Below are positions 45,820 through 63,654 of a stretch of DNA of 64,000 bases, one piece after another. The stretch's first letter is position 1. Each line of letters starts with the position of its first letter. Below the pieces are notes generated by a model. The model searched no databases, had not been told where the DNA came from, and saw nothing but the letters and a program-made list of their open reading frames with translations. The translations under genes and the position numbers were made by a program. Source of the stretch: Vescimonas coprocola (lineage in GTDB: Bacteria; Bacillota; Clostridia; Oscillospirales; Oscillospiraceae); contig NZ_AP023418.1 in the NCBI RefSeq assembly GCF_018408575.1, positions 620,001-684,000 of the forward strand. Reading direction: 5' to 3'.

Positions 45820-45993
45820 ATGCGGAAGCGGTTTTATCGGGATCGGGCCGTGGCGGAGTGCGGGCTGTGCGGACGGGAGATCTGGCCGGAGGAGGGGTTT
45901 TATCAGGTGAACGGGGAGATCTTCTGCCGGGATTGTCTGGAGAGGTATGCGGAGCAATTTTTTGCGGGGTTTTTCAGAGAAGGGACTGTGTGA
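45820..45993 (+). CDS. Small zinc-ribbon-like protein of the phage cassette
   Basis: The 57-residue protein has ECGLCGREIWPEEGFYQVNG followed by IFCRDCLERYA, two CxxC pairs that could bind one zinc. Start ATG 45820 follows AGGAGG by about 10 nt. The TGA stop overlaps the next ATG, so it is coupled to the small terminase-like gene. The two CxxC knuckles suggest nucleic-acid or protein binding. The precise role is unknown. Confidence 0.75.
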   Translation: MRKRFYRDRAVAECGLCGREIWPEEGFYQVNGEIFCRDCLERYAEQFFAGFFREGTV

Positions 45994-46337
45994 TGGGGAA
46001 GGAAAGAAATGTGCCGTGGGAGGAGATCCTGCGGCGGAGAAAAGAGGGGGAGACGGCCCGTGCGCTGGCGGAGGAGTTCGGCGTGTCCGTGGAGAGTGTC
46101 TATAAGCGAGGGCAGCGGGAGCGGCTGGAGCAGAGGGGCAGCTTGCAGCAGGCGGCCCGGAACCTGTGCCGCAGTGCAGGGAGCATGGTGGCGCAGATGG
46201 AGGATATGGACGCCAAGGAACTCAAGGAGCTGACGGCGCTGCTGCGGGAGCTGGTGACGCTGGAGGAACGGACGGACAAGGGGCCGGAGACGGTGAAGGT
46301 GGTGCTGGCGAAGGAAGCGGAGGAGTGGAGCAGATGA
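45993..46337 (+). CDS. HTH protein, probable small terminase subunit
   Basis: The 114-residue protein starts with a helix-turn-helix (EGETARALAEEFGVSVESVY, residues about 18-37). A helical region follows that could oligomerise (MEDMDAKELKELTALLRELV). The position directly before the large terminase is that of terS, which recognises phage DNA for packaging. The sequence alone does not prove it. Confidence 0.65.
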   Translation: MGKERNVPWEEILRRRKEGETARALAEEFGVSVESVYKRGQRERLEQRGSLQQAARNLCRSAGSMVAQMEDMDAKELKELTALLRELVTLEERTDKGPETVKVVLAKEAEEWSR

Positions 46338-47698
46338 GCGTGCAGGTGGTGAAGCTGGAGCGGCCCAACCCCCGGCAGGAGGAGTTTTTGAAGTGTGAAA
46401 AGAAGTATGTGGCCTTCGGCGGGGCCAGAGGTGGCGGGAAGAGCTGGGCAGTGCGGACCAAGGCAGTGCTGATGGCCCTGAAGTACCCCGGCATCCGCAT
46501 TTTGCTGGTACGGCGGACCATGCCGGAGCTGGAGAGCAATCACCTGCGGTTTTTACGCAGGCAGTTGGCGGGGGTGGCGGAATACAAGGCGGTCTCCCGG
46601 CAGCTGGTGTTCCCCGGCGGCAGCGTGCTGGAGCTGGGGTACTGCGCCTGTGACGGGGATATGGATCGGTATCAGGGGGCAGAGTTCGACGTGATCTGTA
46701 TCGATGAGGCCACCCAGCTGAAGGAGGAGTGGCTGCGGCAGTTTGCGGCGTGTCTGCGAGGGGTGAATGAGTTCCCCAAGAGGATGTACTATACCTGCAA
46801 CCCCGGCGGGCCGGGGCATGGGTACATCAAGCGGCTGTTCATCGACCGGCGATACCGGGCGGGAGAGCGGGCGGAGGAATACGCCTTCATCCCCGCCAAG
46901 GTCACGGACAATCAGGCGCTGCTGCGGGCGCAGCCGGACTATCTGCGGCAGCTGGAGGCCCTGCCCCTGCGGCTGCGGCAGGCGTGGCTGGAGGGCAAGT
47001 GGGACGTGTTTCAGGGGCAGTTCTTTCAGGAGTTTGTGGACGACCCGGCCCACTATCGGGACAGGCGGTTCACCCACGTCATCGAGCCCTTCGACATCCC
47101 CAGAGAGTGGAGCATCTGGCGCAGCTACGACTTCGGCTATGCCAAGCCCTTTTCCTGCGGCTGGTGGGCGGTGGATCACGACGGGTGCGTGTATCGGATC
47201 CTGGAACTGTATGGCTGCACCGGGGAGCCGGATGAGGGGGTAAAGTGGACGCCGGAGAAGCAGTTTGCAGAGATCCGGCGTATCGAGGACACCCACCCGT
47301 GGCTGAAGGGACGGGATATTTTAGGGGTGGCGGACCCGGCCATTTGGGACAGCAGCCGGGGAGAGAGCATCTATGAGACGGCGCTGAAGCACCGCATCTT
47401 CTTTATGAAGGGGGACAATCGGCGGATACCGGGATGGATGCAGATGCACTATCGGATGGCCTTCGACGAGGAGGGGTATCCGCAGCTGTATGTGTTCACC
47501 GGGTGCCGGGCTTTTCGCAGGACCGTGCCGGGGCTGCTGTTCTCCGAGACGGAGCCGGAGGATCTGGACACCCGGATGGAGGATCATGTGGCCGATGAGA
47601 GCCGGTATCTGTGCATGGCCCGGCCTATCCCGCCCCGGCGGGTGGAGACGGCACTGCCGGTGCAGGACGATCCACTGAATATGCTGGCGAGGCGGTAA
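46334..47698 (+). CDS. Phage terminase large subunit
   Basis: The 454-residue protein has the packaging ATPase Walker A GGARGGGKSW (residues 29-38) and Walker B DVICIDEATQ. The C-terminal nuclease pattern begins at SYDFGYA and has GVADPAIWD. It cuts and pumps DNA into proheads. ATGA overlap with the preceding gene. The fold fits Terminase_6/3-like large subunits. Confidence 0.92.
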   Translation: MSVQVVKLERPNPRQEEFLKCEKKYVAFGGARGGGKSWAVRTKAVLMALKYPGIRILLVRRTMPELESNHLRFLRRQLAGVAEYKAVSRQLVFPGGSVLELGYCACDGDMDRYQGAEFDVICIDEATQLKEEWLRQFAACLRGVNEFPKRMYYTCNPGGPGHGYIKRLFIDRRYRAGERAEEYAFIPAKVTDNQALLRAQPDYLRQLEALPLRLRQAWLEGKWDVFQGQFFQEFVDDPAHYRDRRFTHVIEPFDIPREWSIWRSYDFGYAKPFSCGWWAVDHDGCVYRILELYGCTGEPDEGVKWTPEKQFAEIRRIEDTHPWLKGRDILGVADPAIWDSSRGESIYETALKHRIFFMKGDNRRIPGWMQMHYRMAFDEEGYPQLYVFTGCRAFRRTVPGLLFSETEPEDLDTRMEDHVADESRYLCMARPIPPRRVETALPVQDDPLNMLARR

Positions 47699-47820
47699 TA
47701 CCGGGAAAAATTTCCGGTGTTGCACAGGGGCGTGCAACAGGAGGGGAAACTTCCGGCGGCGGTGGGCGGAGAAGTGAGGACAGGAAAGCTGTTTTGGACA
47801 AACGGAAGGGGAGAAATGAC

Positions 47821-49563
47821 ATGAGAAAAACGCAGCAGACGGCGGGGGAGAAGCCCCGCATCGGAGAGCAGGAGGTGCGCCGGGCGGCGGAGCTTCTGAA
47901 GAAGTACCGGCAGGGGAAGGTGAATCTGGAGCGGCGTATCATCGACAATGAGCAGTTCTGGAAGCTGCGGCACTGGCCGCAGATGGAGAAGAAGGGGGAG
48001 GGGGGAAATCCCGGCGACCCGCAGCCCACCAGCGGGTGGCTGGTGAACTGCATCCTCTCCAAGCACGCAGACGCCATGGACTGCTACCCGGAGCCTACGG
48101 TGCTGCCCAGAGAACCGGGGGACCGGGCGGAGGCGGCCAAGCTGACCCGTATCCTGCCGGCCATCCTGAAGAAGAACCAGTTCAAGCGAACCTATTCCAG
48201 CGCATGGTGGTACAAGCTGAAAAGCGGGTGCGCCGTGTACGGCGTGTTCTGGGATGCGGGCAAGCTCAACGGTCTGGGGGACGTGTCCATCCGGCGGATG
48301 GATCTGCTGAACCTGTTTTGGGAGCCGGGGGTGACGGACATTCAGGATTCGGCCAACTTCTTCTCCACGGAGCTGGTGAGCCATGAGGTGCTGGAGGAGC
48401 AGTATCCCCAGCTGAAGGGGAAGCTGGGCGGCGGAGGGTTTACCGTGAGCCGGTTCCTGTATGACGATCAGGTGGATACCTCCGACAAGGCACTGGTGGT
48501 GGACTGGTACTACCACACCCGTGAGAAGGGGCGCAGGGTGCTGCAGTACTGCAAGTTCGTGGGGGAGACGGTGCTGTATGCCACGGAGAACGACCCGGAG
48601 CTGCGGGAGCGGGGGTGGTATGACCATGGGAAGTATCCCTTTGTGTTCGACGTGCTGTTCCCGGAGGAGGGGACGCCCTGCGGGTACGGGTATGTGGATC
48701 TGTGCAAATCCCCGCAGAAGCAGATCGACCTGATGAATCAGGCCATTCTCAAGAATACGCTGGCGGCGGCCACGCCACGGTTTTTCATTCGGTCGGACGG
48801 GGCGGTGAACGAAAACGAGTACGCCGATTGGACCCGGCCCTTCGTACACACCAACGGCAATCTGGGGGCGGACTCCATTGCGCCTATTCACACGGCGGGG
48901 CTGGACAGCGTGTATGTGGCCATCATGCAGAGCAAGATCGCCGAGATGAAGGAGACGGCGGGGAACCGGGACGTGGCCAACGGCGGAACGGCCTCCGGTG
49001 TGACGGCGGCCACGGCCATCGCCGCCTTGCAGGAGGCGGGGGGCAAGCTGTCCCGGAACATGATCGACGACGGGTATGAGGCGTTTTCCGATGTGGTGAC
49101 GCTGGTCATCGAGCTGATCCGGCAATTTTATCAGCTTCCCCGGCAGTTCCGGCTGCTGGGGGCCATGGGCCGGGAGGAATTCGTCAGCTACGACGGGCAG
49201 GGCCTGCGGGAGCAGGTGATGGACGATGGGACGGGGGTCTGCTACCGGGTGCCGGAGTTCGATCTGGAGGTGTCGGCGCAGGATGAGAATCCCTACAAGA
49301 CCATGGAGTATAACCAGCTGGCCCTGCAGCTGTTTCAGATGGGCTTTTTCCGGGAGGATATGGCGGATCAGGCGCTGCGGTGTCTGGAGCTGATGGACTT
49401 CAAGAACAAGGACCAGCTGACGGCGGCTATTTTGCAGGGTAAGCAGCAGGCTGCCATGGCGCCCCCGGCGGAGGGAGCGGCCTCCGGCGGCGGGACGGCG
49501 GTGAAGCAGTCGGCCATGGAGCGGATGCGTCAGCAGACCCATGAGGCGGTGAGGCCCCGATGA
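47821..49563 (+). CDS. Phage portal protein
   Basis: The 580-residue protein is of podovirus-type portal length and contains GWLVNCILSKHADAMDCYPE, KQIDLMNQAILKNTLAAATP and ETAGNRDVANGGTASGVTAA. The position between terminase and protease and the size support portal. I cannot identify a single catalytic motif. The C-terminus is low-complexity (Ala/Gly/Gln-rich). Start ATG 47821 follows GGGGAGA by 6 nt. Confidence 0.8.
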   Translation: MRKTQQTAGEKPRIGEQEVRRAAELLKKYRQGKVNLERRIIDNEQFWKLRHWPQMEKKGEGGNPGDPQPTSGWLVNCILSKHADAMDCYPEPTVLPREPGDRAEAAKLTRILPAILKKNQFKRTYSSAWWYKLKSGCAVYGVFWDAGKLNGLGDVSIRRMDLLNLFWEPGVTDIQDSANFFSTELVSHEVLEEQYPQLKGKLGGGGFTVSRFLYDDQVDTSDKALVVDWYYHTREKGRRVLQYCKFVGETVLYATENDPELRERGWYDHGKYPFVFDVLFPEEGTPCGYGYVDLCKSPQKQIDLMNQAILKNTLAAATPRFFIRSDGAVNENEYADWTRPFVHTNGNLGADSIAPIHTAGLDSVYVAIMQSKIAEMKETAGNRDVANGGTASGVTAATAIAALQEAGGKLSRNMIDDGYEAFSDVVTLVIELIRQFYQLPRQFRLLGAMGREEFVSYDGQGLREQVMDDGTGVCYRVPEFDLEVSAQDENPYKTMEYNQLALQLFQMGFFREDMADQALRCLELMDFKNKDQLTAAILQGKQQAAMAPPAEGAASGGGTAVKQSAMERMRQQTHEAVRPR

Positions 49564-49847
49564 TCCGGGCGGTATTCGGACGGGACCGGGTGACGGTGAT
49601 GGGTCACGCCGGGTATGCTCCCAAGGGGCAGGACATCGTGTGTGCGGCGGCATCGGCGCTGGTATTTGCCCTGATCGGCAGCCTGCGGCAGGAGGAGAAT
49701 CTGCGGGAGGTGGTGATCCGGCCGGGGTATGTGACGGCGGCGGCCAAGGGGCCGTGCCGGGCAGAGCTGGAGCTGGTGCGGTGCGGACTGGCGCAGCTGG
49801 CGGCGCAGTATCCCCAATGCGTAGAGGTGGAGGGGAATTGCAGATAG
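49560..49847 (+). CDS. Prp-like cysteine protease in phage cassette
   Basis: The 95-residue protein has GHAGYAPKGQDIVCAAASAL, with H16 and C28 12 residues apart, as in host Prp (YsxB). Prp is the protease that removes the N-terminal extension of ribosomal protein L27. Its location directly between portal and scaffold is where phages place the prohead protease. The 4-nt overlap with the portal gene couples translation. No separate host copy is in the window. I infer a role in capsid maturation. Confidence 0.85.
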   Translation: MIRAVFGRDRVTVMGHAGYAPKGQDIVCAAASALVFALIGSLRQEENLREVVIRPGYVTAAAKGPCRAELELVRCGLAQLAAQYPQCVEVEGNCR

Positions 49848-49880
49848 GGTCGTGACCTACCACGGAAAGGAGGTATCTCT

Positions 49881-50480
49881 ATGAGAGGGGTACAGTGGAT
49901 GCAGTGGTTTGCAGAGGAGGGGGTGGCCGATGAGGCGGCCCGGACGGGCGATACGGCTCCCGACGCCGGGGAGCAGGAGAATTTTGCGGCGCTGATCCGG
50001 GGCAGGTACAAGGCGGACTTCGACGCCAGAGTACAGAAGATCCTGGATGGACGGCTGCGGGGCCTGCGGCAGGAGAATGCACGGCTCCGGCAGGAACGGG
50101 AGCAGCGGCAGGAGCAGGCCCGTCAGGCGATAGAGGCCATGGCGGCACAGGAGGAGCAGGTGCGGCAGGTCTATCCGGAGTTCCGGTGGCAGCGGGAGAT
50201 GGAGAACCCGGCCTTCGGACGGCTGGTGTGCGCCGGAGTGGAGCCTATGGCGGCCTATGAGGTGGTGCATCGGGAGGACATCCTGCGGCGGGCCATGGCC
50301 TACTCCGCCAAGCGGACGGCACGGCAGGCGGCACGTTCTATCGCCAGCGTGGGCAGACGTCCGGCAGAGAACGGCGGGCGGTGTGTAGGCGTGACGGGCA
50401 GCGATCCCAGAGGACTGACCTCCCGTGAACTGGCGGATATCCGCAGACGGGTCATGGAGGGGGAGAAAATCTCCTTCTGA
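49881..50480 (+). CDS. Phage scaffold-like protein
   Basis: The 199-residue protein is highly charged and helical (LRQENARLRQEREQRQEQAR). It begins MRGVQWMQWFAEEGVADEAA. Residues Q8-W9-F10-A11 match the LQxFA pattern cut by Prp. The position between protease and capsid is that of a scaffold. The prediction is that its N-terminus is removed after assembly. Start ATG 49881 follows AAAGGAGG. Confidence 0.75.
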   Translation: MRGVQWMQWFAEEGVADEAARTGDTAPDAGEQENFAALIRGRYKADFDARVQKILDGRLRGLRQENARLRQEREQRQEQARQAIEAMAAQEEQVRQVYPEFRWQREMENPAFGRLVCAGVEPMAAYEVVHREDILRRAMAYSAKRTARQAARSIASVGRRPAENGGRCVGVTGSDPRGLTSRELADIRRRVMEGEKISF

Positions 50481-50543
50481 TGGGAGCGGCCACGGATGGA
50501 GCCGCAGGAAGAACACAACGAAGCGGAGAAAGGAAAGAGGAAT

Positions 50544-51767
50544 ATGGAGAAACTGTTCGATCTGCAGGTGTTTGCACAGGAGAACACCCAGACCACCGGC
50601 GGACTGTCCGCCGAGATGAAAACCTATTACGGCATGGAGCTGTTGGATAACGCCAAGCCCCAGCTGGTACACAACCAGTTCGCCGCCACCAAGCCCCTGC
50701 CTACCGGCGGCGGCAAGACGGTGGAATGGCGCAAGTTCGGCTCCTTCGACAAGGCGCTGACCCCGCTGACGGAGGGCGTGACCCCGGACGGCAGCGGCAT
50801 CTCCGTCAGCTACATCACCAAGGAGCTGGCTCAGTACGGTGACTACACCACGGTGTCGGATATGCTGGATCTGACAGCCATCGACGATGTGGTGCTGGAG
50901 ATCACCGATCGGCACGGCGCCAACATGGGGCTGACGCTGGATACCGTGACCCGCAATGAGATCCAGCAGGGTAAGCAGGTGCTGTATGCTCCGGCCATCG
51001 GCGCAGACGGCAGCAAGACGGAGGTCACTGCCCGTGGCGCTCTGACGGCGGCGTGCCGCCTGACCAGCGAGATGGTGGCCAAGGCCGCTACCCAGCTGAA
51101 GAAGATGAACGCACCTACCTTCGACGGCAAGTATGTGTGCATTCTGCACCCCAGTGTGGCCTTCGATCTGCGGCAGGACGAGGCGTGGATCGCCGCACAT
51201 CAGTATGCCGCTGCCACGGAGCTGTTCTCCGGCGAGATCGGTGAGCTGCACGGAGTGCGTTTTGTGGAGACCACGGAGGCAAAAATCTTCCGGGGCGAGG
51301 ATCTGGCACAGAACGGCCGCACCTTGCTGGTCAACGGCAAGGTGGAGAATAACGCCGTGGTGGCCTTTGACGGCGGCACCGTGGCGGCGGGCGCTCTGGC
51401 GGGCCGGTATGTGCTGCTGGGCGGTGAGCGCCGCCGTGTGGTCAGCAACACCGGCAGCAGCATGACGCTGGACAGCGCCGTGACCGCCGCCGACAACGCC
51501 GTCATCTATCCCGGCGAGGGCGGCGCCGAGGGCTGTGCCGTATACGGCTGCCTGTTCGTAGGAAAGGGCGCCTACGGCGTGGTGGATCTCAACGATGGCA
51601 CGGAGGTCATCGTGAAGCCCCGTGGCTCCTCCGGCACTGCCGATCCGCTGGATCAGCGCTCCAGCGTGGGCTGGAAGGGCGTTCACGCCGCTGCGATCCT
51701 GTACGACGAGTACATCGTGCGGGTGGAGTGCGGCTCCTCCTACTCCGGGCAGGACAAGGCCAACTAA
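50544..51767 (+). CDS. N4-gp56 family major capsid protein
   Basis: The 407-residue protein shows GGKTVEWRKFGSFDKALTPL, the block YTTVSDMLDLTAIDDVVLEI, and GLTLDTVTRNEIQQGKQVLY, typical of N4-gp56-type capsids. An HK97-fold shell protein is expected. Its N-terminus MEKLFDLQVFAQENTQ has Q8-V9-F10-A11, like the Prp site in L27. A middle region (KTEVTARGALTAACRLTSEM) fits the fold. The upstream ATG at 50496 would put 16 residues ahead of the motif; AAAGAGG favours 50544. Confidence 0.9.
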   Translation: MEKLFDLQVFAQENTQTTGGLSAEMKTYYGMELLDNAKPQLVHNQFAATKPLPTGGGKTVEWRKFGSFDKALTPLTEGVTPDGSGISVSYITKELAQYGDYTTVSDMLDLTAIDDVVLEITDRHGANMGLTLDTVTRNEIQQGKQVLYAPAIGADGSKTEVTARGALTAACRLTSEMVAKAATQLKKMNAPTFDGKYVCILHPSVAFDLRQDEAWIAAHQYAAATELFSGEIGELHGVRFVETTEAKIFRGEDLAQNGRTLLVNGKVENNAVVAFDGGTVAAGALAGRYVLLGGERRRVVSNTGSSMTLDSAVTAADNAVIYPGEGGAEGCAVYGCLFVGKGAYGVVDLNDGTEVIVKPRGSSGTADPLDQRSSVGWKGVHAAAILYDEYIVRVECGSSYSGQDKAN

Positions 51768-51785
51768 AGAGAAGCGGAAAACAGA

Positions 51786-51811
51786 GGGTGCGGGCGGTAT
51801 CGCCCGCACCC
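51786..51811 (+). other. GC-rich hairpin after capsid gene
   Basis: Stem GGGTGCGGGCG / CGCCCGCACCC has a 4-nt loop and no T tract. It may protect the capsid mRNA end or slow transcription. Confidence 0.6.
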
Positions 51812-51834
51812 GGCGGACGGAAAGGAGCAGGCAG

Positions 51835-52038
51835 ATGCAGGAGAAAATGAAAACGGTGCTCATCCCCAGAGGACGGAAGAACGAGGAGAATTTCGTGCTG
51901 GTATCGGTGAATGGGCGGAACTTCAAGATCATGAAGGGCGTGGAGGTACAGGTGCCGGAGTTTGTGGCGCAGGTGCTGGAGAACGCCCGGATGATGGAGG
52001 ACGATGCCCGCAGCTATGTAGACCGCATGGCCAACTGA
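51835..52038 (+). CDS. Small phage head-associated protein
   Basis: The 67-residue protein, KTVLIPRGRKNEENFVLVSV then GVEVQVPEFVAQVLENARMM, has no obvious family. Its position right after the capsid suggests a head decoration or head-fibre component. Start ATG follows AAAGGAG. Confidence 0.65.
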   Translation: MQEKMKTVLIPRGRKNEENFVLVSVNGRNFKIMKGVEVQVPEFVAQVLENARMMEDDARSYVDRMAN

Positions 52039-52056
52039 ACGGAAGGGGGAGAGAGA

Positions 52057-52431
52057 ATGGCGACGGTCAAGCAGGTGCTGGAGCAGGTGGACGCCATGCT
52101 CCCCAACCAGTACACCACGGCGGAGAAGCGGCGGTGGCTTCTGCAGGCGGAGGGCTTCGTAGTGCGGGAGGTGCATCAGCCCCACGCAGGCGGAGAGGAG
52201 ACAGAGGTGCCGCCGGAGGACGCCGGGGAGGACACGGTGCTGCTGGTGCAGCCGCCCTATGACGAGCTGTACCGCCACTATGTGGAGGCACAGATCCACT
52301 ACGCCAACGGGGAGATGGAGCGGTACAACAATGCCTGTGCCGCTTGGAACAACGCCCTGCTGACATACCGGGACTTCTGGTGCCGCAGTCATATGCCCCG
52401 GCAGGGGGTGAAGGCGCTGCGGCTGATGTGA
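52057..52431 (+). CDS. Probable head-tail connector protein
   Basis: The 124-residue helical protein contains QVDAMLPNQYTTAEKRRWLL and YDELYRHYVEAQIHYANGEM. It resembles gp6-like connector subunits in size, helical content and position after the capsid genes. The assignment is by synteny. Confidence 0.6.
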   Translation: MATVKQVLEQVDAMLPNQYTTAEKRRWLLQAEGFVVREVHQPHAGGEETEVPPEDAGEDTVLLVQPPYDELYRHYVEAQIHYANGEMERYNNACAAWNNALLTYRDFWCRSHMPRQGVKALRLM

Positions 52432-52441
52432 GGGGGATGGG

Positions 52442-54160
52442 ATGTTTTTTCAGAAAATGAGCGTGCCGGTGCAGAGCACGGTGACGGTCAGCAGCTTTTT
52501 AGGGCTGGATCGGCGGGCCAGAGGGGAGCTGGGCTCCTTCCGGGAGATGGAGAACCTCACCTCCGACGGCTATCCCACCCTGACGGTGCGGCCCCGGCGT
52601 GGTCTTGCAGGGCGGGTGGAGTCCCCCGGCGGCATAGCCGCCAAGGATGCTTTGATCTGGGTGGACGGGCACACCCTGTATATCGGCGGCGTGGCCACAG
52701 AGTTGGTGCTGACGGAGGGAAGCAAGCAGCTCATTAGCATGGGCAGCTGGCTTATCGTGTGGCCGGACAAGAAGTACATCAACACCGGCGACCTCAGCCG
52801 GTACGGCAGTTTGGAGAATCGGGTGCAGACGCAGGGACAGGTGACGCTGTCTCTCTGCGGGGCCAAGGGGGCGGCGCTGGGGGACTATCTGGTCTCGGAG
52901 GAGCCGCCGGCGGACCCGGCGGGAGGGTGCCTGTGGCTAGACACCGCCGGAGAACTGCCGGTGCTGCGGCAGTACGGTGAGAGTGGCTGGAGCATCCGGG
53001 AGGATACCTATGTAAAAATAGCGGCAGGCGGCATCGGCGTGGGCTTCACCGCCGGGGACGGCGTGGTCATCGAGGGGTGCCGTGAGGAGAGCATCAACGG
53101 CAGCCATGTGCTGGAGGCGGCGGAGGACGGCGCTCTGGTGGTGCCGGGGATGATCGCCAGTCAGGCGACCCAGACGGAGACGTTGACGGTGCGGCGCAGC
53201 GTGCCGGAGATGGACTTCGTTATCGAGAGCGGCAACCGGCTGTGGGGGTGCAAGTACGGTGTGGTGGACGGAAAGGCCGTCAATGAGATCTATGCCAGTA
53301 AGCTGGGGGATTTCAAGAATTGGAACTGCTACGCCGGGCGCAGCACCGACAGCTATGCAGCCACCCGTGGCTCCGACGGCCCCTTCACCGGGGCGGCGGA
53401 CTATCTGGGCAGTCCTCTGTTTTTCAAGGAGGACTGCGTCGAGCGGGTATATCCCAGTGCGGCGGGAGCGCACCAGATCGTGACGGTGCGGTGTCCCGGC
53501 GTCAGGAAGGGCAGCGGACGGAGCCTTCAGACGGTGGAGGGCGTGCTGTACTACCACGGCTGCGGCGGCGTATATGCCTTTGACGGCAGTATGCCCCAGC
53601 GGGTATCCCAAGCGCTGGGGGAGGATGAGTATCACGGCGCTGTGGCCGGAGGCGCAGACGGGAAGTACTATCTCTCGGTGCTGGACGCCGAAAATCAGCC
53701 GCAGCTGTTGGTATACGATGTGCGGCAGGGGTTGTGGCACCGGGAGGACGACCTGCGGGCGGTGGGCTTCGCCGTCAGCGGCGGCGTGCTGTACGCCATG
53801 ACCGGGGCGGGGGACATTCTCGCCTTAAAGGGCGGCGGCACAGTGCAGGAAGAGCCTGTTGTATGGTGGGCGGAGACCGGCGATCTGGGACTGGATTCCG
53901 GCGAGGGAAAGTACCTGGTGCGTCTGTCTCTGCGGCTGCGGCCGGAGGAGGGCGGCGCTGTCCGGGTAGCGGTGAGCTATGACGAGGGGGAGACGTGGCA
54001 GGAGCAGGGCGGCGTCACCGGCAGCGGGCGGCTGCGGGACTGCGTGCTCCATGTGCGGCCCCGGAGGTGCCGGAGACTGCGGCTGCGGCTCTATGGCGTG
54101 GGCGGCTGCCGGGTATACAGCCTGACGGCGGTGTATGAGAAGGGAAGTGACGGCCCGTGA
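52442..54160 (+). CDS. Phage stopper/tail beta-rich protein
   Basis: The 572-residue beta-rich protein begins SVPVQSTVTVSSFLGLDRRA and has repeated GxxY/W blades such as GVLYYHGCGGVYAFDGSM. This suggests a beta-propeller. The position after the connector fits a podovirus neck or tail-nozzle-like component. No exact family is recognised. The last codon overlaps the GTG of the next gene. Confidence 0.6.
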   Translation: MFFQKMSVPVQSTVTVSSFLGLDRRARGELGSFREMENLTSDGYPTLTVRPRRGLAGRVESPGGIAAKDALIWVDGHTLYIGGVATELVLTEGSKQLISMGSWLIVWPDKKYINTGDLSRYGSLENRVQTQGQVTLSLCGAKGAALGDYLVSEEPPADPAGGCLWLDTAGELPVLRQYGESGWSIREDTYVKIAAGGIGVGFTAGDGVVIEGCREESINGSHVLEAAEDGALVVPGMIASQATQTETLTVRRSVPEMDFVIESGNRLWGCKYGVVDGKAVNEIYASKLGDFKNWNCYAGRSTDSYAATRGSDGPFTGAADYLGSPLFFKEDCVERVYPSAAGAHQIVTVRCPGVRKGSGRSLQTVEGVLYYHGCGGVYAFDGSMPQRVSQALGEDEYHGAVAGGADGKYYLSVLDAENQPQLLVYDVRQGLWHREDDLRAVGFAVSGGVLYAMTGAGDILALKGGGTVQEEPVVWWAETGDLGLDSGEGKYLVRLSLRLRPEEGGAVRVAVSYDEGETWQEQGGVTGSGRLRDCVLHVRPRRCRRLRLRLYGVGGCRVYSLTAVYEKGSDGP

Positions 54161-54882
54161 GCACACTGATGATGCCGCCCAGCCCTCAGGGGACGGTGCA
54201 GGAGCAGCTGGTGCGGCAGTATTCGTACCTGTTTCAGATGGCCCAGCAGCTGAATGTGGCGCTGGGACAGCTGGAGAGCGGCGGGACTGCCGCACCCTCC
54301 GGCGGCACTGCGGCCCCGGCGGCGCGGGAGCAGCAGTATCAGACTCTGAAGAGTATGATCGTCAAGACGGCGGACACGGTGCAGAGGCGTATGGATCAGC
54401 TTTCGGCCAAGCTGACGGGAGAGTATGTGGCGGCGTCGGAGTTCGGTACCTATGTGGAGCGGCTCAATGCGTATCTGGAGGCGAATCCGGAGGCGCTGAC
54501 CCAGTATTACAGCTTTTTTGCCGACCTGCAGGCCAGCACGGAGACGGTGTCCGCCGCCTTTGAGCAGTACCGGGTGGAGACAGAAGGATACATCCGGACG
54601 GGCATCGTGTGCTACGACGGGGCGGTGCCGCAGTATGGCGTGGCGGTGGGGCAGAACCTCACCTGCCGGGAGGTGGACGGAGAGACGGTGGTGGAGCAGA
54701 ACGACTTCCGGGCCACCTTCACTGCCAGCAAGCTGTCCTTCTGGCAGGATGCCAGCGAGGTGGCATATGTGTCCAACAACCGGCTGTATATCACCAACAT
54801 CACGGTGCTGGAGGGTATGAGCATCGGGGAGTGGGAGATCTCGTCAGAGAACGGACTGGTGATCCGGTGGATGGGAGGTTGA
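54157..54882 (+). CDS. Phage structural protein (fibre/tail associated)
   Basis: The 241-residue protein has an N-terminal coiled-coil-like part (QQYQTLKSMIVKTADTVQRR) and a beta-rich C-terminal part (NNRLYITNITVLEGMSIGEW). A Ser/Gly/Ala-rich linker occurs at residues 42-55. GTG 54157 overlaps the previous stop; ATG 54169 is an alternative start. The layout suggests a fibre adaptor or chaperone-like component. Confidence 0.6.
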   Translation: MSTLMMPPSPQGTVQEQLVRQYSYLFQMAQQLNVALGQLESGGTAAPSGGTAAPAAREQQYQTLKSMIVKTADTVQRRMDQLSAKLTGEYVAASEFGTYVERLNAYLEANPEALTQYYSFFADLQASTETVSAAFEQYRVETEGYIRTGIVCYDGAVPQYGVAVGQNLTCREVDGETVVEQNDFRATFTASKLSFWQDASEVAYVSNNRLYITNITVLEGMSIGEWEISSENGLVIRWMGG

Positions 54883-54886
54883 GGAA

Positions 54887-56698
54887 ATGGCCAGTATTTA
54901 CGGAGGGGCCTCCGGCAACGGCTGGAAGCTGAGGCTGGACTATACGGTGACGCAGGATCGGGCGGCCAACACATCCAGTCTGAGGCTGCGGCTGTATCTG
55001 TACGCCAACACCACGGGGTCATACAATCTGGAGAAGGACTCGGCGTACTACGTTTTGCAGGGACAGAAGGTCTATCAGACGTATCAGTACACGGCGCCGG
55101 GATGGTATCTGTTGGGAGAACGGACGGTGACGGTGCGCCATGGGGCGGACGGAAACGGCTCGGTGCAGCTGGGCGGTCAGTGGGTGTCGGATGTGGAATC
55201 CAGCTGGACCCCGGCCAGCCTGTCGGTGTCGGCGGCGGTAGCGCTGCCCCGTATCCTGCGGCCCTCGGTGCTGCGGGCGGCGGAACTGACGCTGGGGCAG
55301 GCGTGTGTGCTGTCCATTCGTGCAGAGGAGGAGCGGTACACCCATCGGGTGACGTATGCGCTGGGGAGCGCCAGCGGCACGGTGGTGCAGGAGACGGCGC
55401 AGCGGGAGCTGACGTGGACTCCGCCGCTGGAGCTGGCCCGGCAGCTGCCTCAGTCTGTGGCGGGGACCATGCGTTTGACGGTGACCACCTATGACGGCGA
55501 CACCACCATGGGAAGCAGCGTCACGGAGTGCAGGGTCTATGTGCCGGATACGGTGCGGCCCACGGCGGCGCTGACGGTAACGCCGGTGAACGACAATGCC
55601 GTGCTGGAGCAGTGGGGCGTGTTTGTCAAGGGAATGACCCGGCTGAGGTGGCAGGTGACGGCGCAGGGAGCCTATGGGGCCTCCATCGACGGGTGCAGCG
55701 TCAGCTGCGGCGGTGTAGGCGGCAGCGGTCTGAACGGTGTGTCTGCTGGGGCGGTGTCGGTGAGCGGCGAGGTGACGGCTGCGGCCGCAGTGAAGGACAG
55801 TCGGGGGCGCAGCGTCTCTGTAGAAGCAGAGGCGGTGACAATATACGATTACAGCGGCCCCACCATGACCCGGCCGGCGGTATGCCGGTGCGATGCCGAC
55901 GGCACGGCGTGCAGCGACGGCGGCTATGTGAAGGTGAAGTGTGGGACGCAGTGCTCCGACGTGGGCGGACGGAATCAGGTGAGCCTGCGGGTGCGCTCCC
56001 GGCGTCCCGGCGGGGAGTTCGGCGGCTATACGGCGCTGGAGAGCGGCGTGGAGAAGGTGCTGCCGGGATTTTCTCCGCTGCTGTCGTATGAACTGGAGCT
56101 CTCGGCGGAGGACTTGCCGGGGAGCCGGAGAACGGTGGTGTGCGCCATTCCCACGGCGGCGGCTGCGGTGCATCTGGCCTCCGGCGGCACGGCGGTAGGC
56201 GTGGGGAAGTATGCCGAGCACGACCGGGCGGTGGAGGTGAACCCGGAGTGGGAGGTCTATGTGAAGGGTAAGGCCCTGTGGGAACTGATCTATCCTGTGG
56301 GGAGCCTGTATCTGTCGGCGGCGGATACCGATCCGGGGGTGCTGTTTGGCGGAACGTGGGAGCGCATCCGGGACAGGTTCCTGCTGGCGGCAGGCACTGC
56401 GTATGGTGCAGGGACCACCGGCGGTGAGGCGGTCCACACGCTGACGGAGAATGAACTGCCCGCCCATGCCCACAACCCGGCCAACGAGGCGGGGTACTAC
56501 GGCTTTATCACCAACAGCCAGAAGGTCTTTGCCGTGGGGGATATGGGCGTGCAGAGTGGCAGCGGCCGGTACTATCCCTATGCCCCGGCGGCCTTTGATA
56601 TCAGCCGCAATACCAAAACGGGCAGCGTGGGCGGCGGGAAGGCCCACAACAATATGCCGCCGTATCTGGCGGTGTACGTCTGGCAACGGACGGCATGA
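54887..56698 (+). CDS. Tail fibre/receptor-binding protein (DUF859-like, collar-type end)
   Basis: The 603-residue protein has an N-terminal DUF859-like part (NGWKLRLDYTVTQDRAANTS), and Ig-like segments follow. The end is PVGSLYLSAADTDPGVLFGG, TWERIRDRFLLAAGTAYGAG and HNNMPPYLAVYVWQRT. This final block is the tail-collar-like module found at the ends of fibres. It is the best candidate for host recognition in the cassette. Follows the previous gene by 4 nt. Confidence 0.8.
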   Translation: MASIYGGASGNGWKLRLDYTVTQDRAANTSSLRLRLYLYANTTGSYNLEKDSAYYVLQGQKVYQTYQYTAPGWYLLGERTVTVRHGADGNGSVQLGGQWVSDVESSWTPASLSVSAAVALPRILRPSVLRAAELTLGQACVLSIRAEEERYTHRVTYALGSASGTVVQETAQRELTWTPPLELARQLPQSVAGTMRLTVTTYDGDTTMGSSVTECRVYVPDTVRPTAALTVTPVNDNAVLEQWGVFVKGMTRLRWQVTAQGAYGASIDGCSVSCGGVGGSGLNGVSAGAVSVSGEVTAAAAVKDSRGRSVSVEAEAVTIYDYSGPTMTRPAVCRCDADGTACSDGGYVKVKCGTQCSDVGGRNQVSLRVRSRRPGGEFGGYTALESGVEKVLPGFSPLLSYELELSAEDLPGSRRTVVCAIPTAAAAVHLASGGTAVGVGKYAEHDRAVEVNPEWEVYVKGKALWELIYPVGSLYLSAADTDPGVLFGGTWERIRDRFLLAAGTAYGAGTTGGEAVHTLTENELPAHAHNPANEAGYYGFITNSQKVFAVGDMGVQSGSGRYYPYAPAAFDISRNTKTGSVGGGKAHNNMPPYLAVYVWQRTA

Positions 56699-56713
56699 AA
56701 AGGAGGAAGAAAG

Positions 56714-57826
56714 ATGGCATCCAATTATCCTACCGTCTACTACGGCTCCTACGGAGAGACGGTGAAGCAGCTGCAGCAGGCATTGAACCAGGTGGGCTAT
56801 TCGCTGGACGTGGACGGCGGCTTTGGGGAAAAGACCCGTGCGGCGGTGCTGGACTATCAGCGCAAGAATGGTCTGCGGGTGGACGGCGTGGCGGGCAGCG
56901 AGACCATGGGGAGCCTGTTGGCACGGCTGACCCCGGCTACCTCAGGCCCCAGCACCAGCGGTCAGGTGCTCTCCGGCGTGTCGGATGAGACTATGAGCCG
57001 GATGCGGCAGCTGGAGAAGGGATATACCCCATCCGATGAGGTGACGGCGGCCCGTGCTCTGTGGGAGAGCCTGCAGGGGCAGAAGCCGGGGGAATATGAG
57101 TCCCGGTTCCAGCAGCAGCTGGCGGCGCTGTACGACCAGATCAGCTCCCGCAAGCCCTATGCCTACGACCCGGAGCAGGACGCCGACTATCAGCGCTATG
57201 CACGGCTCTATCAGAGGCAGGGGCAGGCGGCCATGGAGGATACCATGGGGCAGGCGGCGGCGCTGTCCGGCGGGTATGGTTCCAGCTATGCCCAGCAGAC
57301 GGGGCAGCAGGCATACAGCCAGTATCTGTCGGAGCTGTCGGCCCTGATCCCGGAGCTGGAGAAGCAGGCTCGCAGCCGCTATGAGCAGCAGGGACAGGCC
57401 CTGATGGACCGGTACGGCCTGCTGCAGCAGGCGGAGCAGGTGGATTACAGCCGCTGGCAGGATCAGCTGAAGGCGTGGCAGTCCGACAGCGACCGGGCGT
57501 ATGAGTACTATAACAGCGTGGGGAAGGAGGACCGGGATCTGTACAGCACCATGCTGAAGTACTATGCCGGCAAGGCGGCGGACGAACAGAAGGCCGCTGA
57601 TGGGGTGCGGTACGGCAGCGGCCGGACGGTGGAGGGGGAGAAGCCCCAGTCCCTCAGCTCCACTGCCAGCGACAGTCTGGAGCGGGCCATGGGTAACTAT
57701 CTCAAGGCCGGGGATACCCGCAGCGCACAGAACCTTATTACCCTGTACAAGGAGCGGATGACGCCCACCCAGAAGAAGCGCTTTTCGGCGCTGTTTGACA
57801 AGTACGGCGCAGCCATCGGCTGGTAA
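56714..57826 (+). CDS. Peptidoglycan-binding domain, virion internal-like protein
   Basis: The 370-residue protein has an N-terminal PG_binding_1 module (GSYGETVKQLQQALNQVGYS, then VDGVAGSETMGSLLARL; residues about 12-74). A long Gln/Ala-rich helical part follows (QQTGQQAYSQYLSELSALIP). No lytic domain is recognised. Podovirus ejection or internal proteins can combine such modules. AAGGAGG precedes the ATG by about 9 nt. Confidence 0.65.
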   Translation: MASNYPTVYYGSYGETVKQLQQALNQVGYSLDVDGGFGEKTRAAVLDYQRKNGLRVDGVAGSETMGSLLARLTPATSGPSTSGQVLSGVSDETMSRMRQLEKGYTPSDEVTAARALWESLQGQKPGEYESRFQQQLAALYDQISSRKPYAYDPEQDADYQRYARLYQRQGQAAMEDTMGQAAALSGGYGSSYAQQTGQQAYSQYLSELSALIPELEKQARSRYEQQGQALMDRYGLLQQAEQVDYSRWQDQLKAWQSDSDRAYEYYNSVGKEDRDLYSTMLKYYAGKAADEQKAADGVRYGSGRTVEGEKPQSLSSTASDSLERAMGNYLKAGDTRSAQNLITLYKERMTPTQKKRFSALFDKYGAAIGW

Positions 57827-57830
57827 GGAC

Positions 57831-57859
57831 TTGCCAAAGGGCGGCGGGGCGGGTACAAT
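57831..57859 (+). promoter_or_regulatory. Promoter of transglutaminase-like gene
   Basis: TTGCCA (57831-57836), 17 nt, TACAAT (57854-57859), about 34 nt before the start codon. It shows the next gene is transcribed apart from the phage cassette. Confidence 0.7.
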
Positions 57860-57892
57860 AGAGCCTGACTTGTAAGGGGAGGGCGCTGAGGA

Positions 57893-58900
57893 ATGGCGGG
57901 ATACTACTACGGACAGCTGAGCAAGGAGAAAAAGGCGGTCTATGATATGCTGGCGGCGGGGTGCGATGCGCTGGCGGCGGTGATCCGGGTGCCGGATCTG
58001 GGGACGGAGGTGCTGTCGGACATCTATCTGCGGATGAAGCTGGATCTGCCGCTGCTGTTTTTTGTGACGGGATTTCACTACCGAAAGATGCCGGGGGCGG
58101 ATCATGTGGAGGTGCTGCCGGACTATCTGTTCGACCGGGGAAAGGTGAAGATGCACCGGCAGGCGGTGACGGCCCGGCTGGAGCGGCTGGCCCGGCCCCT
58201 GAAGGGAAAGAGTGACCGGGAGAAGGAGCTGGCCATCCACGATTTCATTCTGGAGAACGTCACCTATGACAAGCTGAAAAAGTCCTATTCTCACGAAATC
58301 ATCGGGCCGCTGACCCAAGGGGTGGGGGTGTGTGAGGGCATCGCCAAGACGGTGAAGGCCCTGTGCGACGCTGTGGGGCTTCCCTGTATCGTGGCGCTCA
58401 GCGAGGCGGCACCGGAGATCGGCGTGCGATACCGGCACACATGGAACGTGGTGACGGTGGAGGGGCAGCGGTATCATATGGACGCCACCTTTGATAACTC
58501 CCTCCAGCGGGGGATGAAGCGGTACGACTACTTCAATCTGGACGACCGGCATATCTTCCGGGACCATCAGAAGCTGGTGCTGCCGCTGCCGGAGTGCAGC
58601 GGAGACAAGGGGTACTTCTACCGGTCGCTGTCCTTCACCAAGACGGAGGATGTGGAGAAGCGGGTGCGGCAGGCCCTGCGGAAGAAGCAGGAGCACTTCG
58701 TGTTCCACTGGCGTGGCGGCGGGCTGAATCAGGAGATCCTGAGGCAGCTGCTGGAGAAGTGCGCCGGTGCGGCGGCAGAGCGGGGCAAGACCGTGGGCTG
58801 CTCCCTGAACCGGGCGCAGGCGGTGATCCAGCTGGATTTCTCCGACGCCCCGGCGGGAGAGGTGCTGGTGGAGGAGCCGGACGAGGGACAGAAGCTGTGA
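57893..58900 (+). CDS. Transglutaminase-like domain protein
   Basis: The 335-residue protein has the papain-like transglutaminase core: C147 in GVGVCEGIAKTVKALC, H182 in RHTWNVV and Asp in YHMDATFDN. It has no signal peptide, so it is likely cytosolic. The N-terminal 100 residues carry a helical extension of unknown role. Such proteins may be proteases or amidases rather than cross-linkers. It has its own promoter and terminator. Confidence 0.82.
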   Translation: MAGYYYGQLSKEKKAVYDMLAAGCDALAAVIRVPDLGTEVLSDIYLRMKLDLPLLFFVTGFHYRKMPGADHVEVLPDYLFDRGKVKMHRQAVTARLERLARPLKGKSDREKELAIHDFILENVTYDKLKKSYSHEIIGPLTQGVGVCEGIAKTVKALCDAVGLPCIVALSEAAPEIGVRYRHTWNVVTVEGQRYHMDATFDNSLQRGMKRYDYFNLDDRHIFRDHQKLVLPLPECSGDKGYFYRSLSFTKTEDVEKRVRQALRKKQEHFVFHWRGGGLNQEILRQLLEKCAGAAAERGKTVGCSLNRAQAVIQLDFSDAPAGEVLVEEPDEGQKL

Positions 58901-59816: not shown

Positions 59817-60683
59817 TTATTTGTTATCATCTTCAATGACATATTTTTTCTTTTGCCGAATCACATAATTACTGATTTTTTCATCATATAGTGGATACTG
59901 GTAATCCAACTGGCATGCCACTTCTGACGAAACCTCCCGGAACAATGCCATACATTGTTCAAAGGATTCCCACATATGGGGATAGGAATCCATATTATAA
60001 GTGGACATAAGTCGTTCCCACAATTCCTCTGGGACATATTGCTTCATAAATTTATAGTTTTTTCCCAAACTGAAATGAAATCCCTGTTTGATACCAATCA
60101 GCCAGGAAATCATGCGAAGCAATTCTTTTCGTACTATATCATTCATATGGTCAATAGCAAAAAGAATTTCTTTGCGGCATAAGCCCTTTACTACATATGT
60201 TGTAGTATTCCAAAATTCATTACAGCAATCGTCAAACATTCTTTGAGTAGGCTTCTGCAAGTGGTAGTCTATATCCGTTGGTATTGGCGGCTTTACGATA
60301 CGGTTGTCTTTATCCAACAGTAACTTTACCAGTTTATCCCATGTAAAATACTCGTCTATCAGTTCCAGCGGCAGCAAAGTTAAATCTATCTTAACATCAT
60401 CAGTAAACAGCATTAAATATGAAAATCCCTTTTCTACAGCTGGAAATAATTCCATATCTTCCGGCTTTTGCAGAATCAACCTTTCACCAAATATATCTAG
60501 CCATTTATCATCACTTGTGAAGCTGTCCATATCCGTAACAAAAAAAGTAATATCAAAATCCTGAAAATCATCAGGCGGAATATTTGTATTTGTTCTAGAT
60601 CCTTCCAAAGTAACCATGCGAATGCGTTTGTCTGTTTTTGCAAAATTCAAAACAATATCATAAACTTCCTTTTCTGATCTCAT
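59817..60683 (-). CDS. ant(6): Aminoglycoside 6-adenylyltransferase, ANT(6)-type
   Basis: The 288-residue enzyme shows IRMVTLEGSRTNTNIPPDDF then QDFDITFFVTDM (GS and DxD nucleotidyltransferase motif). QKPEDMELFPAVEKGFSYLM, IDLTLLPLELID and WNTTTYVVKGLCRKEILFAI follow. This is ANT(6), closer to the -Ib than the -Ia type by recalled sequence. ANT(6) adenylates streptomycin and confers resistance. Start ATG 60683 follows GGAGGA. GC is low compared with neighbours. No promoter was recognised. Confidence 0.9.
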   Translation of the reverse strand: MRSEKEVYDIVLNFAKTDKRIRMVTLEGSRTNTNIPPDDFQDFDITFFVTDMDSFTSDDKWLDIFGERLILQKPEDMELFPAVEKGFSYLMLFTDDVKIDLTLLPLELIDEYFTWDKLVKLLLDKDNRIVKPPIPTDIDYHLQKPTQRMFDDCCNEFWNTTTYVVKGLCRKEILFAIDHMNDIVRKELLRMISWLIGIKQGFHFSLGKNYKFMKQYVPEELWERLMSTYNMDSYPHMWESFEQCMALFREVSSEVACQLDYQYPLYDEKISNYVIRQKKKYVIEDDNK

Positions 60684-60863
60684 TTTTATCTCCTCCAATT
60701 ATTGAAATAGGTGTGAAGCCATTTTAGGGCTTTCCCGCCTTGATTGCCCATCAGCAAGGACGGGCGGGGCTGTCAACGGCGGCGCATTTATGCGCCGTTC
60801 ATCTTGACCGTTGACTGGCTCGGTTGGCTTTGCTATCTCCCCGATAAAAATTAATTAGTCGGG

Positions 60864-61356: not shown

Positions 61357-62157
61357 TTACTTTCTACCCCGTTGTGGCTTTGGATTTTTCAGTAAATCCG
61401 ATTTCTGTGCAATCTTTTTCAACCACTTCTTTTCTTCCTCTGACAGTTTCCCATAGTTCAGCTTGAGCCGCTTACAGATAAATGCCATAGCCGCCTGTTC
61501 CGGGTCGCTGTCGGGACTGGCAGTTTCCTCGGCGGTCTGTAAGAAATCTTCCAGTGGGTTGTCCTCCGGAACGCTGAAAAAATCGTCCTTATGGGCTTCC
61601 CGCAGGTCGAGGGCTATCTTGTTTATGTCCTGCTGTATCACATAGCGGCAAAAGCTGTCGTCGTCAATATGGGCGGCGATAAGCTGTCTTAACTGCGGGT
61701 CGGTCAATCCGGGATTGTGTTGTTTCATAATCGTTGCACTCACAGCGTCCACAATGGCGTTTGCGCTCTGCACCTGCTTTCCCGCTACGCCGTTCACATA
61801 GATTTCAAGGTCGGCCATGAGCCGGGGAAATTCCGGGTGGGTCGCCAGTTCACACAAAAGAGAATTGTCCACCAACCCGCTTTTCAATAGTTCAATCATA
61901 TCGTCACTCAAACACAGGTCTGCAAGATCGGCGTTTGGGTGATTTTTTGTTTGAGAACGGCCCAGCAGATAATCAACGGTCACTTCATAGAACTTCGCCA
62001 ACTCAATAAGGGCATAGTGGCTGATGTCTTTGAACTTGTCCCCCTCATAACTGCCCAAAGCAGACTTGGAGAGATGGGTCTGCTCCGCAAGCTGCTCCAG
62101 CGTCAAGCCACGCTCCACACGCAGGTCTTTCAATCGTTCTTGTATGGATAGTTCCAT
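61357..62157 (-). CDS. Xre-type transcriptional regulator of mobile element
   Basis: The 266-residue protein has an N-terminal HTH (RVERGLTLEQLAEQTHLSKS, then LGSYEGDKF; residues about 13-42). A long helical C-terminal part follows (IMKQHNPGLTDPQLRQLIAA). This arrangement is common on Firmicutes conjugative and mobilizable elements, where such proteins regulate element genes. Start ATG follows GGAGGGA. Confidence 0.82.
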   Translation of the reverse strand: MELSIQERLKDLRVERGLTLEQLAEQTHLSKSALGSYEGDKFKDISHYALIELAKFYEVTVDYLLGRSQTKNHPNADLADLCLSDDMIELLKSGLVDNSLLCELATHPEFPRLMADLEIYVNGVAGKQVQSANAIVDAVSATIMKQHNPGLTDPQLRQLIAAHIDDDSFCRYVIQQDINKIALDLREAHKDDFFSVPEDNPLEDFLQTAEETASPDSDPEQAAMAFICKRLKLNYGKLSEEEKKWLKKIAQKSDLLKNPKPQRGRK

Positions 62158-63258: not shown

Positions 63259-63654
63259 ATGACAAACACGATTTACATTCATCAGCCGGAACAGGCGTTC
63301 AGCTTCACCCGGCTCCCCAATTTCCTCTTTGAAGCCCCTACATTCCAGCCCCTGTCCAACGAGGCAAAGGTTCTGTACGCCTTTATCCTGCGCCGGACAG
63401 AGTTGTCCCGCAAGAATGGGTGGGCGGATGACTACGGACGGATTTTCCTGTATTACCCTATCTGCGAAGTGGTTGACCTGCTCCATTGTGGGCGGCAGAA
63501 AGCGGTGAACACCCTGCGGGAACTGCAATACGCCGGACTGGTGGAAATCCAGAAGCAGGGCTGTGGAAAACCCAACCGCATTTTCCCAAAATCCTATGAA
63601 GCGGTTCCAAACACCGACTTCAAGAAATCCGGTTCTGGTACGCCGGAGGACTGA
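63259..63654 (+). CDS. RepA_N-type replication initiator, short or frameshifted
   Basis: The 131-residue protein has FSFTRLPNFLFEAPTFQPLS, NEAKVLYAFILRRTELSRKN and DLLHCGRQKAVNTLRELQYA, a RepA_N initiator domain. It ends at TGA soon after KKSGSG. In the next frame the sequence continues as THEVRKSLLRRTKTG, a phrase typical of RepA tails. A frameshift near 63640 is possible. No good ribosome site precedes the ATG. Confidence 0.7.
   Translation: MTNTIYIHQPEQAFSFTRLPNFLFEAPTFQPLSNEAKVLYAFILRRTELSRKNGWADDYGRIFLYYPICEVVDLLHCGRQKAVNTLRELQYAGLVEIQKQGCGKPNRIFPKSYEAVPNTDFKKSGSGTPED

Follow-up and report, generated by a model that had tools for sequence, protein, structure and literature searches.

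A Prp-family cysteine protease in a phage-like head cassette of Vescimonas coprocola, with matching cleavage motifs on capsid and scaffold

Prp is essential in Staphylococcus aureus and is a proposed drug target. Does a bacterial chromosome also carry this enzyme as part of a phage-like head cassette, beside the proteins that it would cut? The question is raised by a stretch of 64,000 nucleotides from Vescimonas coprocola (contig NZ_AP023418.1 of assembly GCF_018408575.1, positions 620,001 to 684,000, forward strand), which as a whole is called the window here. Between a portal gene and a scaffold gene the window encodes a small protein that an earlier note, made from the sequence alone, had likened to Prp. 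The note also described motifs like the Prp site of ribosomal protein L27 near the N-termini of the scaffold and capsid, and considered such a self-contained module unusual. Judged by its profile, modelled fold and His, Asp and Cys residues, the gene is a true Prp, predicted to cut LQxF/A (the slash marks the bond). The features on which the argument rests are the following.

49560..49847, + strand: phage-type Prp cysteine protease, 95 amino acids (PF04327, AlphaFold2 model, PDB matches, tree position)
49881..50480, + strand: scaffold-like protein, 199 amino acids, coiled (phrog_13908)
49899..49913, + strand: predicted Prp site of the scaffold, M7-Q-W-F10/A11 (window sequence)
50544..51767, + strand: N4-gp56 family major capsid protein, 407 amino acids from the ATG at 50544 (TIGR04387, phrog_1357)
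50562..50576, + strand: predicted Prp site of the capsid, L7-Q-V-F10/A11 (window sequence, family conservation)

The Prp gene overlaps the portal stop codon with its start (ATGA in the window sequence) and lies between the portal and scaffold genes, not between those of L21 and L27. Its product matches PF04327 with 56.5 bits against a curated cut-off of 27, and also phrog_4478, 'peptidase'. H16 (CAC, 49605-49607), D25 (GAC, 49632-49634) and C28 (TGT, 49641-49643) are the counterparts of H22, D31 and C34 in S. aureus Prp; His and Cys are spaced by 12 in both proteins, with the Asp at Cys-3, which upholds the spacing and gene position described in the earlier note. The S. aureus mutants H22A, C34A, C34S and D31A lose activity (PMC9405229), and the catalytic His and Cys are invariant in 20/20 and 39/39 aligned Prps (two alignments). 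An AlphaFold2 (AF2) model built from 39 sequences has a mean predicted local distance difference test score (pLDDT) of 92.9. Compared with the PDB, this model gives 11 matches with E<=1e-3, namely S. aureus Prp (7kld and 7jvs, ligand or peptide bound; TMq 0.78-0.80), TM1457, named TmPrp in PMC9405229, and two streptococcal homologs deposited without function, S. mutans SMU.848 and S. pneumoniae 2idl. A sequence profile of Prp retrieves the same five PDB sequences. With the NCBIfam equivalog models for ribosomal Prp, the window protein scores far below the cut-offs, as does, below them too, the Prp of the host rplU-rpmA locus. An identical Prp, together with a capsid 99.8% identical to that of the window, is found on contig MT837590 from human faecal samples.

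The candidate substrates carry the motif at the same place. The scaffold begins MRGVQWMQWF/AEEG, with residues 7-11 encoded by ATGCAGTGGTTTGCA, and the capsid begins MEKLFDLQVF/AQEN, with residues 7-11 encoded by CTGCAGGTGTTTGCA. These codons verify the L27-like motifs, MQWFA and LQVFA, that had been noted at residues 7-12 of both proteins, and the 80alpha-type substrate motif LQxFA is thus present at both N-termini, with Met at P4 in the scaffold. The earlier note placed the cut after A11, which is off by one: Prp cuts between F and A in phage 80alpha (PMC5744158), so the scissile bond would be F10/A11. The open frame of the capsid begins at 50496, while the note's residue numbering requires the ATG at 50544; this start is preceded by AAAGGAAAGAGG and also suits homologs. 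The capsid matches TIGR04387 (N4-gp56 family) with 250.8 bits (cut-off 60). Residues 80-199 of the scaffold match the scaffold part found in natural fusions with Prp (hhalign probability 98.7; see below), and its MQWFA aligns by eye with LQHFA and LQLFA of two other loci (L026 and L406). The window's mechanical open reading frames (ORFs) of at least 100 amino acids, 42,258 residues in all, contain 7 copies of [LMI]Qx[FLM]A, both tag sites counted; from this rate we estimate that two neighbouring tagged N-termini would arise by chance with a probability of the order of 1e-5.

The cassette enzyme is distinct from the ribosomal Prp of the host. A search of the genome found a second, canonical Prp at C1:176366-176680, between L21 and L27, while the same search of an E. 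coli control genome gave no match. The host L27 begins MLNIGLQFFAHKK, and its tag, LQFF/A, resembles those of the cassette. In a tree of 123 Prps, one branch with a Shimodaira-Hasegawa-like approximate likelihood ratio (SH-aLRT) support of 100 divides 23 Prps from the rplU-rpmA loci of relatives from 100 Prps of phage loci; the alignment is short and the method a quick one. In this tree the window Prp groups with the phage Prps, apart from the host enzymes. The earlier note had held that the cassette itself carries the protease and had proposed both a search for a host prp beside rplU/rpmA and a comparison of trees; both agree with its view. We had also considered that the cassette gene might be the genome's only Prp, with a ribosomal role, which the second canonical copy rules out.

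If the motif serves the cassette enzyme, it should be found where that enzyme is found. Within the window's own capsid family we compared 27 non-identical loci whose capsids share 70% identity or more and whose sequence spans the interval from portal to capsid; L401 and L398, whose portals lie outside the stretch, were excluded. The capsid is tagged in 23/23 loci with Prp and in 0/4 without (Fisher 6e-5), in keeping with the pairing of protease and motif drawn in the earlier note. In the four Prp-less members (L021, L022, L023 and L400) the portal (71-76%), the scaffold (38-40%) and the capsid (75-76%) are all still present. The N-terminus of these capsids is MSNMNTQTT or similar, at the place where LQLF/A-DSNTQTT stands in tagged capsids. 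The genomes of L400 and its sister L401, the latter with too little upstream sequence to count among the four, each contain one Prp (76.1 and 79.3 bits) that is host-like by score. This joint absence of Prp and tag indicates that the tag goes with the enzyme of the cassette. Judged from N-terminal sequences, the capsid tag is the constant one and the scaffold tag is facultative.

A broader set was selected by the capsid family phrog_1357 (46/295 genomes of the order and 56/391 of the class), giving 80 fetched loci plus the window. From each listing 40 places were fetched; omitted were most of those with internal stops, fragments, near-copies and contig ends, and some places already known from the Prp search (G093, G109, G128, G138, G142 and G135:C23). 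With a Prp beside the capsid, a tag of the form hydrophobic-x-x-F/L-A/D/G was present in 36/36 capsids by our own count from the N-termini; with Prp only elsewhere in the genome it was present in 16/23, and with no Prp match in the genome in 0/21. Many of these loci are related, so they are not 80 independent events. L306 was dropped (capsid truncated at the contig end), L259 was scored as having a local Prp on the basis of a divergent one missed by Pfam, and four tags were read by hand (L264 IQAFA, L267 IQLFA, L268 LQLFA, L302 LQLFA). Less than 2 kb of sequence precedes the capsid in L252, L296 and L297, so a neighbouring Prp may have been missed there; the capsids of L311 and L312 are distant ones. 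That the motif is merely ancestral to the capsids was considered and rejected on the joint absence and the 0/21 in Prp-free genomes. In L273, L275, L276 and L277 we observed capsids tagged LTLFD with no adjoining Prp, each genome having two Prps on other contigs.

The association was also approached from the enzyme. Searching viral contigs with one pattern gave 472 stretches with a Prp relative, and 80 of them were retained. The Prp-selected set comprises 96 distinct Prp loci, none of them ribosomal and each followed by 2 kb of sequence or more; loci with identical Prps were removed. The motif [LMI]Qx[FLM][AGS] lies near the start of a downstream ORF in 83/96 loci, and on at least two ORFs in 56/96. 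At the same 96 loci, seven altered motifs were found in 2-17 loci and the motif on the other strand in 1, with the two-ORF count always 0. Thinning the set at 60% identity left the motif in 56/67 loci, on at least two ORFs in 36/67, with controls of 1-14 and 0. On these altered-motif and other-strand controls we reject a chance association of Prp gene and motif. Downstream proteins of 174-200 amino acids are tagged in five contigs (L038, L130, L148, L150 and L177).

Cultured phages behave in the same manner. Scaffold and capsid are tagged in 8/8 of those with Prp (phiFL3A, BL3, PLgT-1, TP712, phiS13, a Latilactobacillus phage, Fontainebleau and Dorea DO134P1), with variant tags in the TP712 capsid (LQRFS), in both Fontainebleau proteins (NLQLFD) and in the Dorea DO134P1 capsid (LQVFT). 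Relatives chosen by capsid, without Prp in the stretch, are tagged in 0/8 (TVCOM_ph1, 049ML001, 000TH010, Ab105-2phi, Javan117, LP-030-3, Pascal and API480). The phiFL3A capsid reads LQIF-AAKTKIEDVIVPEVF after its first residues, while its homolog in Prp-less TVCOM_ph1 reads MSTKIADIIVPEVF. The major tail protein of BL3 is tagged as well, and tail tags agree with a remark on the phi13 tail in PMC5744158. Several records deserve separate mention. In Dorea phage DO134P1 an open Prp frame that carries no annotation precedes the scaffold (L034, about 3990-4288). In another phage (L006, L008; 2949-4964) the 671-amino-acid protein before Prp, a portal by position, begins MNLQLLARK, possibly a further Prp site, and the next tagged protein reads LQLLA. 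The record 'Enterococcus phage Efs 1-1-1' (L195) holds host prp-rpmA-type DNA; it was left out because this rplU-prp-rpmA DNA is the host's.

In some loci enzyme and substrate are a single reading frame. The Prp-selected set contains 13 loci with Prp fused to scaffold, 11 of them distinct (two pairs are copies), and in all 13 LQ[LM]F[AG] follows 10-27 residues past the Prp domain; L, Q and F are invariant in the 9 aligned sites. Five further fusions in the capsid-selected set have LQLFA (three) or LCRFD (two) at the junction, and the Prps of the latter two are without the Asp. In these fusions the scaffold half is a homolog of the window's scaffold. In an AF2 model of one natural fusion the junction site falls in a low-confidence linker (pLDDT ~40). 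Many fusions have a Met directly before the site, so free scaffold may also be made from them.

Not all tags are alike. Among the 36 capsid loci with a local Prp, 18 have Gln at P3 with Ala at P1', 17 have no Gln with Asp or Gly, and 1 is mixed. An Asp at -3 of the Prp Cys goes with Ala at P1' (17 + 11 rows as expected, 6 + 1 against; p 3e-4, 35 rows); L233 was left out of this table, its pattern being unparsed, and has a loop without Asp and the motif LSLFD, as expected. In the Prp-selected set, Prps with H-x11-C and Asp-3 have LQxFA partners in 83/90 cases and other Prps in 0/6, two of these six having no capsid in range and four having been seen earlier with F/D sites. The rule was framed on the capsid-selected set and then applied to the Prp-selected one, which is not fully independent since the window is in both. 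The combined 91 motif-assigned rows (67 canonical with F/A, 21 non-canonical with F/D or F/G, 3 against) omit loci without a motif class, including 7 canonical Prps without a strict motif, an omission that favours the dialect reading. A tree-based test has 3 independent well-supported pairs (over 200 pairings, 2.7 agree and 0 disagree on average) and thus cannot reach 0.05. In these sets the motif dialects, F/A versus F/D or F/G, track the active-site loop of Prp, though with weak tree control. Additionally, the first two tagged ORFs of a locus share an identical 5-mer in 20/36 cases (expected 10.7, p 1e-4), the window being one of the loci whose scaffold and capsid 5-mers differ.

Taken together, it is very probable that the cassette is a self-contained Prp maturation module whose enzyme trims the capsid, and less surely the scaffold, at F10/A11. 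Capsid and scaffold, encoded in one operon with the enzyme, would be synthesised carrying the Prp tag. The enzyme would recognise L/M-Q-x-F at the N-terminus of the capsid and, with less certainty, at that of the scaffold. C28 would act as the nucleophile, H16 likely as the general acid, and D25 would shape the substrate loop. Cutting at F10/A11 would remove the first ten residues, as S. aureus Prp does on L27 and on the 80alpha capsid and scaffold, and by analogy with 80alpha would take place before or during procapsid assembly. The tag appears to be an add-on, the capsids of Prp-less relatives starting about where the cut would leave them. Host Prps are selective, since the C. difficile enzyme leaves the S. 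aureus peptide uncut (PMC9405229); an enzyme of its own would free the particle from the host's specificity, and the cassette can probably mature particles without the host enzyme.

Several observations weigh against this proposal. In 80alpha neither the capsid nor the scaffold cut is essential, although assembly needs an initially intact scaffold N-terminus (PMC5744158), and since 80alpha with uncleavable capsid is viable, cutting may not be essential here either. Thirteen of the 96 Prp loci lack the strict motif: by eye, four have xxxFD sites, three have a YQMFA capsid with an untagged scaffold, in three a terminase or portal comes after Prp, so that the stretch examined ends before scaffold and capsid, and three (L146, L151 and L187) are unexplained. 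The four Prp-less family members probably go back to a single loss. Only 8 of the 27 family scaffold N-termini are tagged, that of the window among them, and the L266 scaffold starts ...ISLQFFA though no Prp was detected in its genome. Lastly, the 16 tagged capsids of the 23 loci whose only Prp is elsewhere mean that a host Prp or a distant one may do the work, as happens with 80alpha.

This last point bears on the possibility that the host's ribosomal Prp cuts capsid and scaffold, leaving the cassette Prp redundant or otherwise employed. The 80alpha precedent (PMC5744158) and the resemblance of the host L27 site to the tags lend it weight, but we consider it unlikely: in the window family tag and cassette Prp are absent together while the two checked genomes retain a host-like Prp, the motif dialect follows the loop of the adjoining Prp, the fusions place the site beside the phage Prp itself, and the selectivity of the C. 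difficile enzyme speaks against one Prp serving for another (PMC9405229). We infer that the phage enzyme is the one that cuts. Quite improbable, too, is a Prp that acts mainly as an assembly chaperone or timing factor by binding the tag, with cleavage incidental. Such a role, to which PMC9405229 gives a section, would accommodate the viable 80alpha mutants with uncleavable capsid or scaffold and the need for the scaffold N-terminus (PMC5744158), but not readily the invariant catalytic His and Cys or the start of Prp-less homologs near the expected cut. That the cassette Prp instead processes host L27 during particle production, the capsid tags being bycatch, is scarcely credible; fold and motif are similar enough to permit it, but the gene is part of the head operon, next to those for scaffold and capsid, a Prp is already present in the host, and the phage Prps form a separate group.

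How does the cassette compare with known systems? With S. aureus Prp (MEROPS C108) and 80alpha it shares the fold, the spacing of His, Asp and Cys and LQxF/A on capsid and scaffold, but 80alpha borrows the host enzyme, whereas the window has it in a head cassette with an N4-gp56 capsid and a P22-like portal. In phiFL3A, BL3, PLgT-1, TP712 and the Oenococcus and Latilactobacillus phages, Prp lies near the portal and LQxF[AS] is on scaffold and capsid, as in the window, but their heads are SPP1-like or of other siphovirus types. The Prps of these phages are annotated 'peptidase', 'ribosomal protein', 'unknown' or 'hypothetical'. HK97/P2-type prohead proteases likewise share an operon with scaffold and capsid and form protease-scaffold fusions; their fold is unrelated to that of Prp. 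A phage-encoded capsid protease of the Prp family is already known, since the enzyme of Streptococcus phage Cp-1 that is reported to process the head protein, removing 48 residues, belongs to MEROPS C108 (PMC12445089). Cp-1 and the window thus both encode a C108 member, Cp-1 being a phi29-like phage with a much longer removed segment. The Cp-1 head protein has no LQxFA in its first 110 residues. Presumably its protease is orf13 (L190 8805-9119, annotated hypothetical), and this protein matches the phage Prp profile with E 2e-7. The expectation that a cassette Prp module would be unusual therefore does not hold: Cp-1 is a precedent, and phage Prps with matching motifs are widespread in the Prp-selected loci and in cultured phages.

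In the literature that we searched we found no general Prp module with L27-like tags, no junction-site fusions and no dialects; the founding papers on the enzyme, Wall 2015 and 2017, may mention phage homologs. We regard as new the Prp-scaffold fusions with a junction site, the motif dialects and the matching of scaffold and capsid sites within a phage. A wider generalization is tentative and rather doubtful: Prp processing might be a general assembly switch, portable among the head modules of Bacillota, with two dialects in which protease and substrate co-evolved (LQxF/A with H-x11-C and the Asp-3 site; LxxF/D or F/G with other loops) and self-releasing Prp-scaffold polyproteins, and with a resident gene-transfer-agent-like Oscillospiraceae cassette maturing without host Prp. 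Cassettes of enzyme and substrate, two dialects and natural fusions offer ready-made pairs for working out Prp specificity. The purpose of the cleavage for phages stands as an open question in PMC5744158, and loci that naturally have neither enzyme nor tag provide an intact comparison for it.

Around these genes the window holds the remainder of a particle cassette.

46292..47698, + strand: terminase large subunit, TerL (PF03237, phrog_979)
47821..49563, + strand: P22-like portal protein (PF16510, 103.7 bits)
52057..58900, + strand: rest of the cassette (family matches), consisting of the next six entries
from 52057, + strand: cassette gene (phrog_12105)
from 52442, + strand: cassette gene (phrog_511)
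from 54157, + strand: cassette gene
from 54887, + strand: tail protein gene
from 56714, + strand: peptidoglycan-binding lysin-like gene
from 57893, + strand: transglutaminase-like gene

This cassette of about 13 kb (window 45820-58900) is also seen in L313-L332. The order TerL, portal, Prp, scaffold, capsid, 52057, 52442 and lysin recurs in 13/13 further genomes of the genus examined (the scaffold of G012 is weak), and its small flanking genes are recognisable in about eight of them. A TerL homolog is present in 26/32 genus genomes and in 13/14 good ones, as a single copy in 24, and divergence in TerL parallels that in RpoB (Mantel r 0.65, p 2e-4, 18 genomes). The flanks are chromosomal genes in the window and some other genomes; they differ between species, and the site is not conserved. 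A Pfam scan of 19 cassette and flank proteins, in which half of the ten flank proteins had no family, showed no integrase, no search aimed at integrases having been made. As known from its genes, the cassette is compatible with a resident particle of the gene-transfer-agent kind; a satellite or prophage bound to the host would match as well. Just downstream of it lies a streptomycin adenylyltransferase-type gene (59820-60698, - strand; PF04439, 387 bits), with a helix-turn-helix regulator (61357-62157, - strand) and a RepA_N protein (63259-63654) nearby; this group looks like a second mobile element.

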